Part shown: one piece after another, positions 22,735 to 27,423 of the stretch
Position numbering within the stretch: position 1 is the first letter of the stretch
How the letters are laid out: each line of letters opens with the position of its first letter
DNA from: Aliiroseovarius halocynthiae
GTDB lineage: Bacteria; Pseudomonadota; Alphaproteobacteria; Rhodobacterales; Rhodobacteraceae
DNA length: 64,000 nucleotides
NCBI RefSeq assembly: GCF_007004645.1
Contig: NZ_ML660019.1
Coordinates: forward strand, 169,408 to 233,407
Direction of reading: 5' to 3'
Position numbers and translations under genes: made by a program
The notes under the pieces: generated by a model
What the model saw: the letters and a program-made list of their open reading frames with translations, nothing else
Database searches by the model: none
Told to the model about the DNA's origin: nothing

Positions 22735-22812
22735 ATTCCGATCCCTGCTGCGTGTTTAGGCGCAGTAAGCCCGAGAACCGGAATGGGGTCTAGTGGGACC
22801 TCGCATAAAAAA

Positions 22813-22887
22813 TACCATGCTGGACGGCGGCGCGGTTGACTGCTGCGATGTCGGAACATTCCAAACAAAGGAGTTTCCAGCATGGTA
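22813..22887 (+). repeat. 12-bp inverted repeat enclosing the transposase start
   Basis: TACCATGCTGGA at 22813-22824 is the exact reverse complement of 22876-22887, with 51 nt between. The right arm contains the ATG at 22882. If transcribed from outside, the hairpin would hide the start codon; it could also be part of the element's guide RNA. Confidence 0.7.
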
Positions 22888-23976
22888 AAGAAAGCAACAC
22901 GCATTTCGCGCTTTGTGGCGGCAGTTGAAGATCAGCCTGTCGTCGTTGGCCTAGATGTTCACAAGAAGACCTATTCGGTTGCGCTGTTTTCCAAAGAGGA
23001 CGGGTTGGTAGAGAGTTACACCTGTCCGTCAGGTGAAGCGGCACTGGCTCATCAACTGACAGAACTGGGTATTAACTTAGAGCACATAGTTTATGAATCC
23101 GGCCCTACCGGCTTCGCTCTGTCGCGGGTTTTGACGGATGCAGGTTTTGATGTGTCCATCATCGCAGCTTCGCGCATTTCTCGCGGATATGCAGCGGCAG
23201 CGAAGAATGACCGTTTGGATGCGGTGAAGCTGGCAACCTATTATGCCCGTGGGTTGCTACGCCCCATCGCGGTCCCGACTGTAGAGCAAGAGGGCTATCG
23301 CGCCTTGGTGCGACGGCGCAAACGGATCGCAGAAAGCAGGGGTAAGATCAAACAGAAGATCAAGGGTTTCTTGCTGGCGTCCGGCATTGATGAACCGGAT
23401 AGCATTCAGAAGTGGTCGCTGGCGGCATCCGCCGACTTGACCGCGCTCGATGTGCCGCCGCAACATCACATGGCGCTGGCCTCAATGGTGCGCGAATACC
23501 TGTTTCTGTTATCGGAAGACAAGATGCTCCGCGCAGAGATCCGCACTGCCACCAAACGGATGCACCCCGAACCTTATAAGCGCCTGACCTCTATCGTCGG
23601 TGTGGGGGAGACTGCCGCGACAAGCTTTTTGGCCGAGCTATTCTCGCCAGAGAGGTTTAACAGGCCGGAAGAAGTAACCTCGTATCTCGGGCTGGCCCCG
23701 GTGGTCAGCCCGAGCGGTGGCAGTGCAGCCCGGGCCAGGATCAAGCCCGTGGGTCAGAAGCGTCTGCGTGGCATTCTGGTTGAAGCGGCATGGCAATGGA
23801 CGTGGCGCGATCCGGAAGCCAAGGAACTCTACAATCGACATTTTGCGAAGCATGGGATCGGGCAGAAGGCGATTGTCGCCGTCGCCCGTAAGCTCGCAAC
23901 CAAGCTTTGGCGCTTGGCGATGGAAGCACGGCCCGCGTCAATGGGGGATGCTGCGAGCGGGGCTCGGTCGGCATAA
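22882..23976 (+). CDS. IS110-family transposase/recombinase
   Basis: This 364-residue recombinase has the RuvC-like DEDD domain at the N-terminus: VVGLDVHKKT (Asp25), HIVYESGPTG and KNDRLDAVKLA. A central coiled region is followed by the C-terminal Tnp domain (LTSIVGVGETAA then SPSGGSAARAR with the candidate catalytic serine). The gene is full length with no frameshift, so the copy may be active. AAAGGAG lies 8 nt before the ATG but falls beside a 12-bp inverted repeat. It inserted upstream of the hydrolase-dehydratase operon. Confidence 0.95.
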   Translation: MVKKATRISRFVAAVEDQPVVVGLDVHKKTYSVALFSKEDGLVESYTCPSGEAALAHQLTELGINLEHIVYESGPTGFALSRVLTDAGFDVSIIAASRISRGYAAAAKNDRLDAVKLATYYARGLLRPIAVPTVEQEGYRALVRRRKRIAESRGKIKQKIKGFLLASGIDEPDSIQKWSLAASADLTALDVPPQHHMALASMVREYLFLLSEDKMLRAEIRTATKRMHPEPYKRLTSIVGVGETAATSFLAELFSPERFNRPEEVTSYLGLAPVVSPSGGSAARARIKPVGQKRLRGILVEAAWQWTWRDPEAKELYNRHFAKHGIGQKAIVAVARKLATKLWRLAMEARPASMGDAASGARSA

Positions 23977-24266
23977 CCGACAGTAAAAAAGGGCAGCATC
24001 CCCATCAACCGGCGCGTACCGAAAACGGTACTTGGTGACCTTACATCATCCTGTCAGGCACGAATAAGAAAAGGCTTACGCAAGGCCGGTGAACAGTTTT
24101 GGTTTGGCCTCCGAACTCGGTGCCTTTGACAGGCACCGTGAGCTTTGCTGCGGCCAATGCCCAATGTCTCAGGTGCGGGACTTTGCTGACGTTCACACCG
24201 CTGATCCGAATGGCCGGTATTATTTGGGTGAAGTTGTTTCGCTTCAATCTCTGGCTTGAGGTCGGC
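23977..24266. other. IS110 right flank and intergenic DNA
   Basis: This holds the downstream hairpins of the IS element (to about 24031) and then about 230 bp with no convincing coding frame up to the end of the AHSA1-type gene. Nothing else is recognised. Confidence 0.4.
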
Positions 24267-24701
24267 CTAATTCGTCTCCGACCAAGGATACGCGCCGGGG
24301 TCTTGCCCTCGCGACGCTGAGTCAAGCCGAGCAAGGAAAATGGGCCACCCATATGCATGTTTCTCAAACTCAGAATCTTGCAACCCGGAATGTGTCAGCG
24401 TCAGCGATGTGCTGCCGCCCCTGTCCTGTAGCGAAATCGAAAGCTGCGTGGAGCCCGGCGGCATTAATTCATTTCCAGCCTCACCCCAGGCTATTTCAAT
24501 GAAAGTGGGACGATCGATTTTGGTGTATTCCCCGCGGATCAGGACACCGTCGATGTCCACCGAAAACAGGCCACCATCCTGTGCATCAAGGCGAGCAAAC
24601 TCACCCATCCAGCGTACCATAAATTCTGGTTTTACAAAGTGATCAAAAACCGTTTCAATCGAGGCCTCAATATCGATCTGCTGAATGAACGCATCCCTCA
24701 T
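24267..24701 (-). CDS. SRPBCC/AHSA1-domain protein
   Basis: This 144-residue START-like helix-grip protein of the AHSA1 group starts with IEASIETVFDHFVKPEFMVRWMG and contains RGEYTKIDRPTFIEIAWG and LSISLQDRGGSTSLTLTHSGL. Such proteins bind hydrophobic ligands. They are very often encoded next to an ArsR regulator, as here, where the start overlaps the regulator's stop by 4 bp. The ligand is unknown. Confidence 0.85.
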   Translation of the reverse strand: MRDAFIQQIDIEASIETVFDHFVKPEFMVRWMGEFARLDAQDGGLFSVDIDGVLIRGEYTKIDRPTFIEIAWGEAGNELMPPGSTQLSISLQDRGGSTSLTLTHSGLQDSEFEKHAYGWPIFLARLDSASRGQDPGAYPWSETN

Positions 24702-25000
24702 TCTTTCTCGGCACTTTCTTTTAACGCTGCTAACTGATCCGCCCAGAAGCTAGACACAAAATCTTGGACCGGTTGAAAACCGCCAATCCTAATTGCGTAT
24801 AAATGCCGCGTCCCCTCCTTGCGCGCCTCAACCAGACCAGCTTCCTCCAACATCTTGAGGTGAAGACTCACTGCCTGCTGCGTGACAGAGACGCGCTTTG
24901 ACATCTCGCCGACTGACATCGTTCCTTGGTCTCTTAATAGCGTTAATAGCTCTCTGCGACGGGGTTCCGCAATTGCCTTCAGAGCGGCCTGCTCGTTCAT
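24698..25000 (-). CDS. ArsR-family transcriptional repressor
   Basis: This 100-residue winged-helix regulator starts MNEQAALKAIAEPRRRELL and has recognition helix region VTQQAVSLHLKMLEEAGLVEARKEG and wing RHLYAIR. No CxC metal site is visible, so it probably senses an organic ligand or works with the AHSA1 partner. Start 25000 has GAGG 5-8 nt upstream and begins the family N-terminus. Two identical ACAAGT-N4-ACTTGT palindromes in the divergent promoter are its likely operators. Confidence 0.9.
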   Translation of the reverse strand: MNEQAALKAIAEPRRRELLTLLRDQGTMSVGEMSKRVSVTQQAVSLHLKMLEEAGLVEARKEGTRHLYAIRIGGFQPVQDFVSSFWADQLAALKESAEKE

Positions 25001-25012
25001 ATCGCCTCTTCC

Positions 25013-25028
25013 ACAAGTATTCACTTGT
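25013..25028. promoter_or_regulatory. Operator 1, ACAAGT-ATTC-ACTTGT
   Basis: Perfect 6-bp dyad with a 4-nt spacer, 13 bp before the ArsR start. The same arms and spacing recur at 25054-25069; the two centres are 41 bp apart, about four helical turns. Confidence 0.8.
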
Positions 25029-25053
25029 ATTTAACGTTTCGCCATCGTATATC

Positions 25054-25069
25054 ACAAGTCACAACTTGT
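25054..25069. promoter_or_regulatory. Operator 2, ACAAGT-CACA-ACTTGT
   Basis: Second copy of the perfect dyad, 13 bp before the GST start. Only the spacer differs from operator 1. The symmetric placement suggests joint repression of both divergent units by the ArsR protein. Confidence 0.8.
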
Positions 25070-25082
25070 AGAAAGGCACGAA

Positions 25083-25688
25083 ATGAAACTTTATAGCCAC
25101 CCGTTTTCGCAACATTCCCGTCGTGTGCGCATGCTTTGCGACGAGCTGAAACTGCGGCCAGAAATAGAAAATGTTTCCCTGGAATCGGGCGAACATAGGA
25201 GTGCCGAGTTCCTAGAAAAGAACCCGACTGGTCGTGTGCCAGTGTTGGAAGATGACTCGATGGTACTGCCAGAGTCGCACGCGATCATGAAATACCTCGC
25301 ATCGAAGTATGGAGGTGAACGGTTCTACGCTCAGGACAATACCACGCGCGCGCAAATAGACATGTGGCTCGATTGGAACCACACCAAACTGAACCCGCCC
25401 GTACAAACTTTGGTCATTCAATCCATGAGCAAAGATGGGGATCCTGCTCAAATTGAAGCGGCTGCGCATCAGTCGACTGATGCGCTCGAAATTCTGGAAC
25501 GTGCAATGCCAATAGAAAGTGGACCAGACGGTTCTCCAACATTGGCGGACTTGTCTCTAGTGAGCACGATTGCGCTATTTGAAATGGTCGGACAATCCCT
25601 TCAGGGCTTTCCAAAAGTGGCGAAGTGGTATGCCGACATCAAGGCTAGGCCTAGCTTCGCAAATACCGCGCCGACAATGGACCAATAG
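25083..25688 (+). CDS. Glutathione S-transferase family protein
   Basis: This 201-residue cytosolic GST has an N-terminal thioredoxin-like domain (about 1-78; LYSHPFSQHSRRVRML with candidate catalytic Ser8, GRVPVLEDDSMVLPESHAIMKYL carrying the cis-Pro and E-S glutathione contacts) and a helical C-terminal domain. It probably conjugates or reduces an electrophile. It is divergent from the ArsR/AHSA1 pair and shares their operator region, so all may respond to one toxic compound. Confidence 0.9.
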   Translation: MKLYSHPFSQHSRRVRMLCDELKLRPEIENVSLESGEHRSAEFLEKNPTGRVPVLEDDSMVLPESHAIMKYLASKYGGERFYAQDNTTRAQIDMWLDWNHTKLNPPVQTLVIQSMSKDGDPAQIEAAAHQSTDALEILERAMPIESGPDGSPTLADLSLVSTIALFEMVGQSLQGFPKVAKWYADIKARPSFANTAPTMDQ

Positions 25689-25735
25689 TCGGCATTTGTA
25701 TGCAATTTTAATTGTCGAAAATCGGAACGGAGCAC

Positions 25736-26266
25736 ATGAAACTTATCAAAGTAATTGCGGTGGGCGCGGTCATTGCCGTCGTTCTACTGATAGGGCTGTC
25801 GCAAATCGGAGGACAAATGACAACGCTTCACCATCAAATCAAAATAGACGCACCACAGGAATTGGTGTTTGCCACGCTCGCGGATCTGGAGACTGTCGAC
25901 GACTACAACCCACACGTCCAAACGGCTAAATACATATCTGAAAATCGCACGGGCGTCGGTGCATCCAGAGAGTGTTTTCTGGGCGCTCAAGGAACCGTGC
26001 TGGAGCGAGTGACAGCGGTTGAAGACGGCAAATCCATTTCGATGGAAATGTACGAGCATAACTGGCCCCTGAAGTACATGCGTTGGACAACCCGCCTTGA
26101 AACCGAGGGCGACTCTACTTTGGTTAGCCAGACACTTGAATATGAGATGAAGTTTGGCCTTCTCGGCGCACTGATGGACAGACTGATGATGAGAGGGAAA
26201 ATGGACAGCACAATGAACGAAGTGTTCAATTCGATGCGGGATTACATTGAAAAAATCCCGGTCTGA
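25736..26266 (+). CDS. Membrane-anchored SRPBCC (polyketide-cyclase-like) protein
   Basis: This protein of about 176 residues has an N-terminal membrane segment (about 4-24) followed by a START-like domain: HHQIKIDAPQELVFATLADLETVDDYNP at the start, SISMEMYEH and SQTLEYEMKFGLLGALMDRLMM near the end. Start 25736 is preceded by CGGAG; ATG 25712 would add eight residues. It follows the GST gene by 47 bp and may belong to the same ArsR regulon. It is the second helix-grip protein of the cluster, but in a membrane form. Confidence 0.8.
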   Translation: MKLIKVIAVGAVIAVVLLIGLSQIGGQMTTLHHQIKIDAPQELVFATLADLETVDDYNPHVQTAKYISENRTGVGASRECFLGAQGTVLERVTAVEDGKSISMEMYEHNWPLKYMRWTTRLETEGDSTLVSQTLEYEMKFGLLGALMDRLMMRGKMDSTMNEVFNSMRDYIEKIPV

Positions 26267-26282
26267 TAGGTTCAAATACTTT

Positions 26283-26307
26283 AGATGCGCGGAAAAACTG
26301 CGCATCT
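26283..26307 (+). terminator. Hairpin after SRPBCC gene
   Basis: AGATGCGC pairs with GCGCATCT across a 9-nt loop, 16 bp past the stop. There is no T-tract, so it is a possible but weak terminator. Confidence 0.5.
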
Positions 26308-26316
26308 CTGGTTTCC

Positions 26317-26332
26317 AACTAGTGAACTAGTT
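26317..26332. repeat. AACTAGT-GA-ACTAGTT dyad
   Basis: Perfect 7-bp inverted repeat with a 2-nt spacer, six bp outside the left end of the MITE-like element. Possibly part of the insertion target or an operator-like site. Confidence 0.5.
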
Positions 26333-26338
26333 CGTGCC

Positions 26339-26468
26339 GATTGTGTTGAAAAACTCCGAAATTCAGACATGACAATTTGGCCGAACCCCTCGCCACGAAA
26401 ATCTGACGAGCCTGTACGGTGAAGAAATCCATTGATCAGACCCAAAATCGGAGTTTTTCAACACAATC
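26339..26468. mobile_element. MITE-like 130-bp element with 21-bp perfect inverted ends
   Basis: Positions 26339-26359 (starting GATTGTGTTGAAAAA) are the exact reverse complement of 26448-26468. The 88-bp interior has no complete gene. Perfect long inverted ends around a short core are typical of a miniature inverted-repeat element mobilised by a full-length IS elsewhere. TGTTGAAAAACTC-like ends are familiar from several IS families; the parent is not in the window. Confidence 0.7.
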
Positions 26469-26590
26469 TGCCCAATGCGGCCATTCTTGCAACCTGCAGC
26501 ATCGGTCAAAGTGGGCTCAGAGCAGCCATTGACAGATTGGCTTTATACTCGCAGCATTGCTGGGTGGGCTTGACAGTCGTCCACATAAGA

Positions 26591-26617
26591 AAGGCCCCGC
26601 CAGTTGGGGCCTTTTTA
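26591..26617 (-). terminator. fabI operon terminator
   Basis: AAGGCCCC pairs with GGGGCCTT around a 7-nt loop, with T-rich tails on both strands, 18-44 bp past the fabI stop. It should end the minus-strand fabA-fabB-fabI transcript and may act in both directions. Confidence 0.85.
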
Positions 26618-26634: not shown

Positions 26635-27423
26635 TCATAGATTGTCTGGCTGAGGCATGCCCAAAACATGGAAGCCGCTGTCGACGGTGATGATCTCGCC
26701 CGTTGTGCAGTTGCCGTAATCGGAGGCCAAATAAACAGCGGTGCCGCCCACGGCTTCCAGCGTGGCGTTCTGGCGCAGGGGGGCGTTCTGTTCCGTATGG
26801 CGGAAGGTCTTGCGCGCACCTCCGATAGCCGCACCGGCCAGCGTTTTCATCGGGCCGGGCGAGATCGCGTTCACGCGGATACCGTTCGGGCCAAGATCGT
26901 TTGCCAGATAGCGCACGGATGCTTCCAAAGCTGCTTTGGCCACACCCATGACGTTATAGAAGGGCGTGACGCGGTTCGAGCCACCATAAGTCAGCGTCAG
27001 GATCGTGCCGCCGTCAGTCATTTTGGGGGCCACGCGGCGGGCCACCTCGATCAGCGAGTAGCAGCTGATATCCATCGAGTGTTTGAAATTCGCGCGGCTG
27101 GTGTCGACGAAGCGGCCAGTCAGCTCGTTTTTGTCGGAATATGCGATAGCGTGGACCAGAAAATCGATCGAGTCCCACTTGGACCACAGGTCGTCGAAGC
27201 CTTTGTCCAGTGCGGCGTCATCCGTGACATCCATGTCGACCAGAATGTCCGACCCCACAGATTCAGCCAGCGGGGCAACGCGCCCGCCAAACGCCTCGCC
27301 CTGATACGAGAACGCAAGCTCCGCGCCTTCGTTGGCCATCGCCTGTGCGATACCCCAAGCGATGGACCGCTGGTTTGCAACCCCCATGATGAGGCCGCGT
27401 TTGCCTTGCATAAGCCCTGCCAT
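26635..27423 (-). CDS. fabI: Enoyl-[acyl-carrier-protein] reductase (NADH)
   Basis: This 262-residue SDR-fold enzyme reduces the enoyl-ACP double bond in the last step of each fatty-acid elongation cycle. The nucleotide-binding start is GVANQRSIAWGIA; the catalytic pair is Y-x6-K in FYNVMGVAKAALE. The C-terminal TGEIITVDSGFHV is typical. It lies 9 bp after fabB in the operon fabA-DUF-fabB-fabI. FabI is the target of triclosan-type inhibitors. Confidence 0.97.
   Translation of the reverse strand: MAGLMQGKRGLIMGVANQRSIAWGIAQAMANEGAELAFSYQGEAFGGRVAPLAESVGSDILVDMDVTDDAALDKGFDDLWSKWDSIDFLVHAIAYSDKNELTGRFVDTSRANFKHSMDISCYSLIEVARRVAPKMTDGGTILTLTYGGSNRVTPFYNVMGVAKAALEASVRYLANDLGPNGIRVNAISPGPMKTLAGAAIGGARKTFRHTEQNAPLRQNATLEAVGGTAVYLASDYGNCTTGEIITVDSGFHVLGMPQPDNL

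Follow-up and report, generated by a model that had tools for sequence, protein, structure and literature searches.

Can an insertion sequence of the IS110 family carry passenger genes, and what would be the role of perfect inverted repeats over both the start and the stop codon of its transposase gene? The question is raised by a locus of Aliiroseovarius halocynthiae (Rhodobacteraceae) within a stretch of 64,000 nucleotides (assembly GCF_007004645.1, contig NZ_ML660019.1, positions 169,408 to 233,407), hereafter called the window, to whose numbering all coordinates refer. The original prediction, made from the letters alone, placed an IS110-family element with an intact gene at 22735-24031 and regarded its hairpins as either part of a guide RNA or a brake on the translation of read-through transcripts. 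From our analysis, 22807-26588 is probably (at roughly 75%) an RNA-guided transposon of the IS110/IS1111 type with cargo. The ends, the cargo, the target class, the covariation of the stem, the covariation of guide and target (mainly in divergent relatives), and the conserved start-codon hairpin come from sequence comparison, and from these we infer the biochemistry. The gene on which the locus centers, and its ribosome-binding site, are as follows (other loci carry L numbers and genomes G numbers).

22882..23976, + strand: IS110/IS1111-type DEDD transposase of 364 amino acids, with PF01548, PF02371, and NF033542 above cut-off
22869..22873, + strand: Shine-Dalgarno sequence AGGAG, from the sequence

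As had been predicted, the gene is intact, with a frame open over 364 amino acids and both IS110 Pfam domains (PF01548, 58.3 bits; PF02371, 75 bits), and it scores 213.7 bits with NF033542 (cut-off 140).

Ends of the Element and Its Empty Sites

22807..22812, + strand: A-run at the left junction, where the similarity of relatives begins; at L042 and L043 an A-run is followed by the terminator stem
26570..26588, + strand: right-end core TTGACAGTCGTCCACATAA, which holds a proposed -35 box (26570-26575) and CGTCCA (26578-26583)
22821..22826, + strand: TGGACG, left copy of a short subterminal inverted repeat whose right copy is CGTCCA (26578-26583), in the same geometry as the 11-bp copy of the relative L084

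At all 11 congener loci read, the element is absent between the flanking genes, and the reductase gene ends 129-210 bp past the common point beside the hydrolase gene. At L042 and L043, the A-run and a GC terminator are plainly visible between these two genes; in the window, the A-run precedes 22813 and the terminator comes after 26589. Because the congeners keep A-run and terminator together and the window splits them at 22813 and 26589, the 3.8 kb between approximately 22807 and 26588 is, on this comparison, an insertion. The left-flank DNA has matches in all 21 genomes of the genus, including the one that holds the window, and the cargo DNA (24260-26330) had no match in any of the 20 other congeners searched. 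The alignment of relatives likewise begins at about 22807, which is 75 bp upstream of the ATG, and a second conserved block was found by pairwise comparison at 26569-26601. This right-end block lies at a variable distance, about +620 to +2625 from the stop codon depending on the element, behind differing cargo. Relatives and empty sites together show that the limits of the original prediction were wrong, the ends being at approximately 22807 and 26588, and that the cargo genes, the right end, and the terminator target had been missed. A right end at the conserved block that terminates at about 24109-24190 was also considered, and it was overturned by the pairwise comparison and the empty site.

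The right-end pattern occurs once in this genome and at nine places across 394 genomes of the family: five of these close known elements, two are orphan right ends, and two (L055 and L058, single mismatch) were judged to be chance, with neither element nor terminator there. Left and right ends of the element in genome G105 (L024/L063 and L064, respectively) lie on separate contigs, and it was excluded from the complete elements; for L033 and L005, no right end was found within the stretch examined. Two decayed loci were also seen. L070 (G228:C1:74000-90500) has two orphan ends that lie 11.7 kb apart on opposite strands, the right one at a terminator and the left one with a degenerate transposase; an inversion, or the decay of two copies, may have left them. 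L021, near 1500-2150, has a decayed left end and, at a distance of about 600 bp, AACAAAAAAGGCCCCC plus a terminator, and is likely a fossil insertion at the same type of site. A genome outside the class, G1052, has four places (L084-L087) that match the transposase, all with stop codons within the match, and L084 has both ends. A search of a viral collection returned no relative of the element.

Cargo Genes between the RNA and the Right End

24267..24701, - strand: AHSA1/SRPBCC protein (PF08327)
24698..25024, - strand: ArsR-type regulator (PF01022)
25083..25688, + strand: glutathione S-transferase (PF13417)
25712..26266, + strand: SRPBCC/polyketide-cyclase-like protein (PF10604)

Both ends were available for 11 Roseobacter-group elements (the window, L025, L026, L027, L028, L029, L030/L062, L031, L034, L035, and L019), and in all 11 the stretch from the RNA to the right end contains one or more additional open frames, in 10 different sets. 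The cargo includes YciI in L029 (with a near-identical copy in L028), LysE in L031, DinB in L019, an alpha/beta hydrolase in L035, and a pyridoxal phosphate-dependent decarboxylase with TetR in L030; Pfam gave no match for the main frames of L025, L026, L027, and L034, which are therefore weaker as genes. The records of L028 and L029 bear the labels Neomegalonema and Lentibacter, and the two have in common the entire unit from left end through transposase, RNA, and YciI to right end (92.5% identity over the main part); no similarity was found in the flanks compared. Tritonibacter scottomollicae DSM 25328 (draft contig, L027) and LC.270.F.C4 (plasmid, L078) have the same element in the same location, where identity is 99.0% and 98.0% over the aligned parts and the cargo differs, with a 356-residue frame in the former and a gene annotated ClbS/DfsB (Pfam DUF1706) in the latter.

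The same region could be read as an ordinary, cargo-free insertion sequence ending near 24086-24190, with the downstream genes and the right-end block having arrived separately and the right-end-like sequence being a chance or independent repeat. Such relatives do occur outside the group: L084 measures 1391 bp from end to end, and the right end of L032 lies within about 60 bp of the conserved RNA; several cargo borders also look like dispersed Rhodobacteraceae repeats. Against this stand our not seeing a right-end-like motif between the RNA and the cargo, the position of the ancestral terminator past 26588, the shared unit of L028 and L029 within dissimilar flanks, and the rarity of the right-end pattern together with its closing of known elements at five of nine places. 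We therefore consider a short element quite improbable and retain the insertion that extends to 26588.

The cargo borders (24163-24220 and 26475-26545; also at L011, L013, L015, and L022) resemble a dispersed Rhodobacteraceae repeat, AATGTCTCAGTTGCGGGACTTTGCTGCCGTTC, and at L015 the right-border and left-border types adjoin; the window's own genome gave only weak partial matches to it. Between cargo and right end, at 26339-26468, lies an element of about 130 bp with 21-bp inverted ends (GATTGTGTTGAAAAACTCCGA), which resembles an insertion of a miniature inverted-repeat transposable element, and a similar end sequence was seen near the ends of the G105 contigs (L063 near 7530, L064 near 107). 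Our guess is that cargo is exchanged by recombination in the border repeats. Tentatively, this clade may be the RNA-guided counterpart of a gene-cassette system, aimed at terminators, in which the contents of the bay between guide RNA and right end are exchanged, probably via the border repeats, and the ends and position stay fixed, the two Tritonibacter strains being the example.

The Stop-Codon Hairpin and the Predicted Guide RNA

23940..24086 (3' limit approximate), + strand: predicted seekRNA/bridge RNA region, which begins inside the transposase gene and is conserved in aligned relatives
23944..24003, + strand: stop-codon hairpin, with outer stem 23944-23954 / 23993-24003 and inner stem 23967-23971 / 23977-23981
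23955..23965, + strand: proposed target guide, complementary to the right target top strand (GAGCGGGGCTC), from guide-target comparison
23985..23992, + strand: proposed target guide AAAAAAGG, identical to the target top strand and complementary to the bottom strand, from sequence comparison
24016..24031, + strand: conserved tetraloop hairpin GTACCG-AAAA-CGGTAC
24059..24074, + strand: conserved CACGAATAAGAAAAGG, a candidate donor-end-matching segment that resembles CACATAAGAAAGG of the right end

The repeat over the stop codon is perfect over 11 bp, as originally described, with 38 nt between its arms and TAA at 23974-23976 inside it. The region 23940-24095 folds better than its shuffles (z -4.66, with 0 of 200 as good). 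In 15 sequences, 94.5% of the cells of the outer stem are paired, and 5 of its 11 pairs have changed on both sides (GGATGCTGC/GCAGCATCC to GGGTGCCGC/GCGGCACCC); L030 and L032 are partly misaligned there, and by hand the stem is also formed, with other sequences, by L030, L032, L083, L084, and L086. The four-helix structure has a covariation score of 0.156 against a shuffled mean of 0.099, which none of 500 shuffles reached, and slid versions of it pair only 32.5-45.1% of cells. The inner stem is conserved without changes on both sides, and the CACGAATAAGAAAAGG segment is still similar in relatives at 41-54% transposase identity. A search of Rfam at E up to 1 gave a single chance-level match, located elsewhere.

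Covariation was seen within the outer stem and also between the loop and the insertion site, the latter weak among close relatives, which makes it very likely that the stop-codon hairpin is the stem by which a seekRNA or bridge RNA overlapping the transposase gene binds its target. Of the two roles proposed originally, that of guide is thus favored for this hairpin and that of brake for the hairpin at the start codon. The downstream tetraloop hairpin, also where the prediction had put it, is conserved beside the stop-codon hairpin and lacks changes on both sides.

Target Terminators and the Guide-Target Match

26590..26616, - strand: target, the intrinsic terminator of the leftward enoyl-acyl carrier protein reductase gene (26635-27423), most of whose A-run is severed by the insertion

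The right-end motif was located at no more than three mismatches in 13 element copies, and L032, L074, and L084 were added by loose match or by eye. At 15 of these 16 right ends, what comes directly after the element is a hairpin whose U-tract lies on the opposite strand. Read from these sequences, the element sits in the U-tract of a terminator, which in the window is that of the reductase gene. Within the loop, the 5' guide segment complements the right target; the 3' segment, which has the sequence of the target top strand, is nearly constant across elements, and hence unfit for a covariation test.

We then permuted guides and targets among 14 elements, with offsets of 0-4 allowed in real and permuted data alike. 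Elements matched their own targets at 95 of 112 positions for length 8 (permuted mean 82.6, P 5e-5) and at 106 of 140 for length 10 (permuted mean 92.2, P 1e-4), and P ranged from 5e-5 to 2.5e-4 for guide lengths 8-11. Own-target matches out of 10 positions were 10 for L074 and L084, 8 for L032, 7 for L030 and the window, and 6 for L026, L028, L034, and L035. Five lineages alone (the window, L030, L032, L074, and L084) gave P of 0.008 and 0.025 at lengths 8 and 10. Flanks without any covariation, an outcome that would have told against the original prediction, were therefore not what we found.

Could insertion beside terminators instead reflect a preference for A-tracts or bent DNA, and the similarity of guide and target mere shared ancestry? 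Roseobacter-group guides and targets are mostly alike, and the 11 elements of the group alone gave P of 0.038, 0.025, and 0.056 at lengths 8, 9, and 10. The signal thus stems mainly from the divergent L032, L074, and L084. Several guides fit the targets of other elements equally or better; at length 10, the window's guide has two targets that fit better than its own, L026 seven, and L035 eight. On the other side, the guides of L074 and L084 match their own targets fully and the 13 other targets at 8 positions at most (the 8 of L032 has two ties), all 14 elements together give P of about 1e-4, and guidance by RNA is already established in the transposase family (PMC11187229, PMC11208160). An unguided preference is accordingly held to be very unlikely, and guidance by the loop of the stop-codon hairpin is preferred.

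The Start-Codon Hairpin

22813..22824, + strand: arm 1 (TACCATGCTGGA), which opens with TACCAT (22813-22818), the proposed -10 box of a promoter at the junction of right and left ends
22876..22887, + strand: arm 2 (TCCAGCATGGTA), which spans the ATG at 22882

The predicted 12-bp perfect repeat over the start codon was found, with 51 nt between its arms. Repeats of such length are improbable by chance: dinucleotide shuffles of 22735-24100 contained at least one perfect repeat of at least 11 nt within 60 nt in 48 of 2000 cases and of at least 12 nt in 8 of 2000; the whole window has six perfect repeats of at least 11 nt, of which three are of at least 12 nt. Loss of the hairpins from other copies, which would likewise have told against the original prediction, was not encountered: all 22 copies examined (17 + 5, some truncated or decayed, with L087, L040, L021, and L023 truncated or degenerate) keep the start-codon hairpin, in a few of them in decayed form. 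Arm 1 is near-invariant across the Roseobacter-group elements. In relatives at 41-43% identity, the arms have changed together, with one mismatch in L083 (ACCATGTAGGCCTC/GAGGCCGACATGGT) and perfectly in L084 (CCATGTCGGTA/TACCGACATGG); L040 shows similar pairing only if a bulge is allowed, and part of the hairpin of L087 has decayed.

In read-through RNA, the AUG was predicted to be unpaired with a mean probability of 0.04; the corresponding value was 0.35 both for RNA that begins past arm 1 and for RNA whose arm 1 had been shuffled. The AUG was less open in read-through RNA than in each alternative in 20 of 22 copies, with L031 and L037 as exceptions to the comparison with RNA starting after arm 1. 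Since the predicted promoter of the circle has its -10 box within arm 1, the hairpin should be confined to read-through RNA, where, on these folding models, it would act as a brake on translation. In three more distant IS110 elements on plasmids (L075-L077, at about 30-32% identity), neither start nor stop was spanned by an inverted repeat of at least 9 nt (by eye only, L076 has a 7-bp candidate); on these three examples, the two hairpins look like a trait specific to this clade rather than one general to the family. A search of plasmids for distant relatives with each hairpin region matched only the Tritonibacter plasmid.

The repeat might alternatively be a site in DNA, either an operator or a recombination site bound by the transposase. 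This would suit the overlap of arm 1 with the left subterminal repeat and the -10 box, and its near-invariance within the group. It suits less well that in L084 the arm over the start codon copies the CCATGTCGGTA part and not the TCTCTGT part of the 11-bp subterminal repeat, that the ATG falls within arm 2 in the copies examined, and that some pairs are G-U. A DNA site is, in our estimate, unlikely, and the RNA brake is the favored role.

Proposed Mechanism

In an excised circle, TTGACA of the right end would meet TACCAT, with which arm 1 at the left end opens, and the promoter formed at this junction would drive the transposase and then the guide RNA that overlaps the 3' end of the gene. The start of its transcripts would lie at about 22824-22827, about where arm 1 ends, and circle transcripts would therefore be free of the start-codon hairpin. 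The 5' side of the target-binding loop would pair with the GC arm of a terminator (top strand) and the 3' side with the A-tract (bottom strand), such that the element would enter terminators on the U-tract side and spare genes. Integration would split the junction promoter; stray transcripts from the left would then carry arm 1, which would pair over the start codon and block translation. The cargo genes, bounded by guide RNA and right end, would travel as passengers.

Several points weigh against this interpretation. The element DNA matches only itself in its own genome, and a single copy is no proof of recent activity. The spacing of the junction promoter (about 17-18) is an estimate, and the exact crossover within the A-run is not resolvable. 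Further pair types of the RNA do not exceed shuffles (15 versus 16.0), and helices 2-4, the tetraloop hairpin included, lack both-side changes. The guides were delimited by eye, three right ends (L032, L074, and L084) came from loose match or eye, the hairpin of L019 is weak, and L083 and L086, degenerate and with broken transposases, have no clear terminator, which brings the total to 15 of 18. The AUG is partly open in the read-through fold of L031, L005, and L037 (0.34, 0.32, and 0.24), with a small difference in L005, and over -14 to +6 the mean unpaired difference is small (0.24 in read-through versus 0.30).

Family and Relation to Known Systems

The transposase combines a DEDD N-terminal domain with a Transposase_20 C-terminal domain, as is characteristic of the IS110 superfamily, and the ISCro4 and IS621 chains match its residues 205-343. 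Its translation includes GLAPVVSPSG, an instance of the C-terminal motif G--P----SG (PMC11187229). Non-coding DNA measures 75 bp 5' of the gene; on the 3' side it is long, as in the IS1111 group, where conservation holds throughout for about 110 bp and reaches as far as about 240 bp among near relatives, before the cargo. IS1111 elements have the top-strand guide first in their seekRNAs, guides 3' of the gene, and a junction promoter (PMC11187229); junction promoters are known for the family (PMC11208160 also). The guides proposed here by sequence match follow that order, with 23955-23965 (top strand) preceding 23985-23992 (bottom strand). The IS1111 group is further defined by subterminal inverted repeats of 7-17 bp. 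The repeat has only 6 bp (TGGACG) here and 11 bp at the same positions in L084; in nine other group members, the longest exact match is 5-6 bp, misplaced in three (L025, L027, and L031), and in L083 it is 5 bp and misplaced. By family and guide layout, the element is thus, as far as its sequence tells, of the IS1111 type, with a subterminal repeat that fits this group weakly.

The element resembles the IS1111-group seekRNA elements ISEc11, ISPa11, and ISKpn4 (PMC11187229) in transposase family, guide RNA 3' of the gene, guide order, overlapping target matches, short subterminal repeat, and junction-promoter elements. It differs from them in a guide stem whose first arm lies within the gene and which encloses the stop codon, in the start-codon hairpin, in a target that is a generic class of intrinsic terminators, in a subterminal repeat of only 6 bp, and in its variable natural cargo, where theirs was engineered. 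With the IS621 bridge RNA system of the IS110 group (PMC11208160), it has in common a related recombinase, a two-sided target-binding internal loop, and a joined-ends promoter; the IS621 RNA lies upstream in the left end, unlike the downstream RNA here. Cargo in the literature consulted (PMC11187229, PMC11208160, and PMC7371123 among it) was engineered or consisted of passengers of Tn3-family transposons. Among the papers listed by our literature search, whose coverage excluded most subscription papers and ISfinder, there was no natural IS110/IS1111 element that carries cargo or targets terminators.

IS110/IS1111 elements are usually treated as bare insertion sequences; passenger genes between ends are known from the transporter insertion sequences of other families. 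In IS10/Tn10 and IS50/Tn5, a terminal inverted repeat hides the ribosome site only in read-through RNA and so protects against external promoters. Their transposases are unrelated to the present one, and in our element the first arm would also be the -10 box of a circle-only promoter. Group IIC introns also insert beside intrinsic terminators as safe landing sites, and these are retroelements with a different chemistry.

The delivery of cargo by IS110/IS1111 systems is an engineering goal, and this clade suggests that evolution has already achieved cargo carriage, aimed at sites where little harm would be expected and with a guide that tolerates variable terminator sequences. One short sequence would serve as the -10 box of a circle-only promoter, as part of the end of the element, and as an arm of the RNA hairpin that should block read-through translation, which would offer a clean test of silencing.
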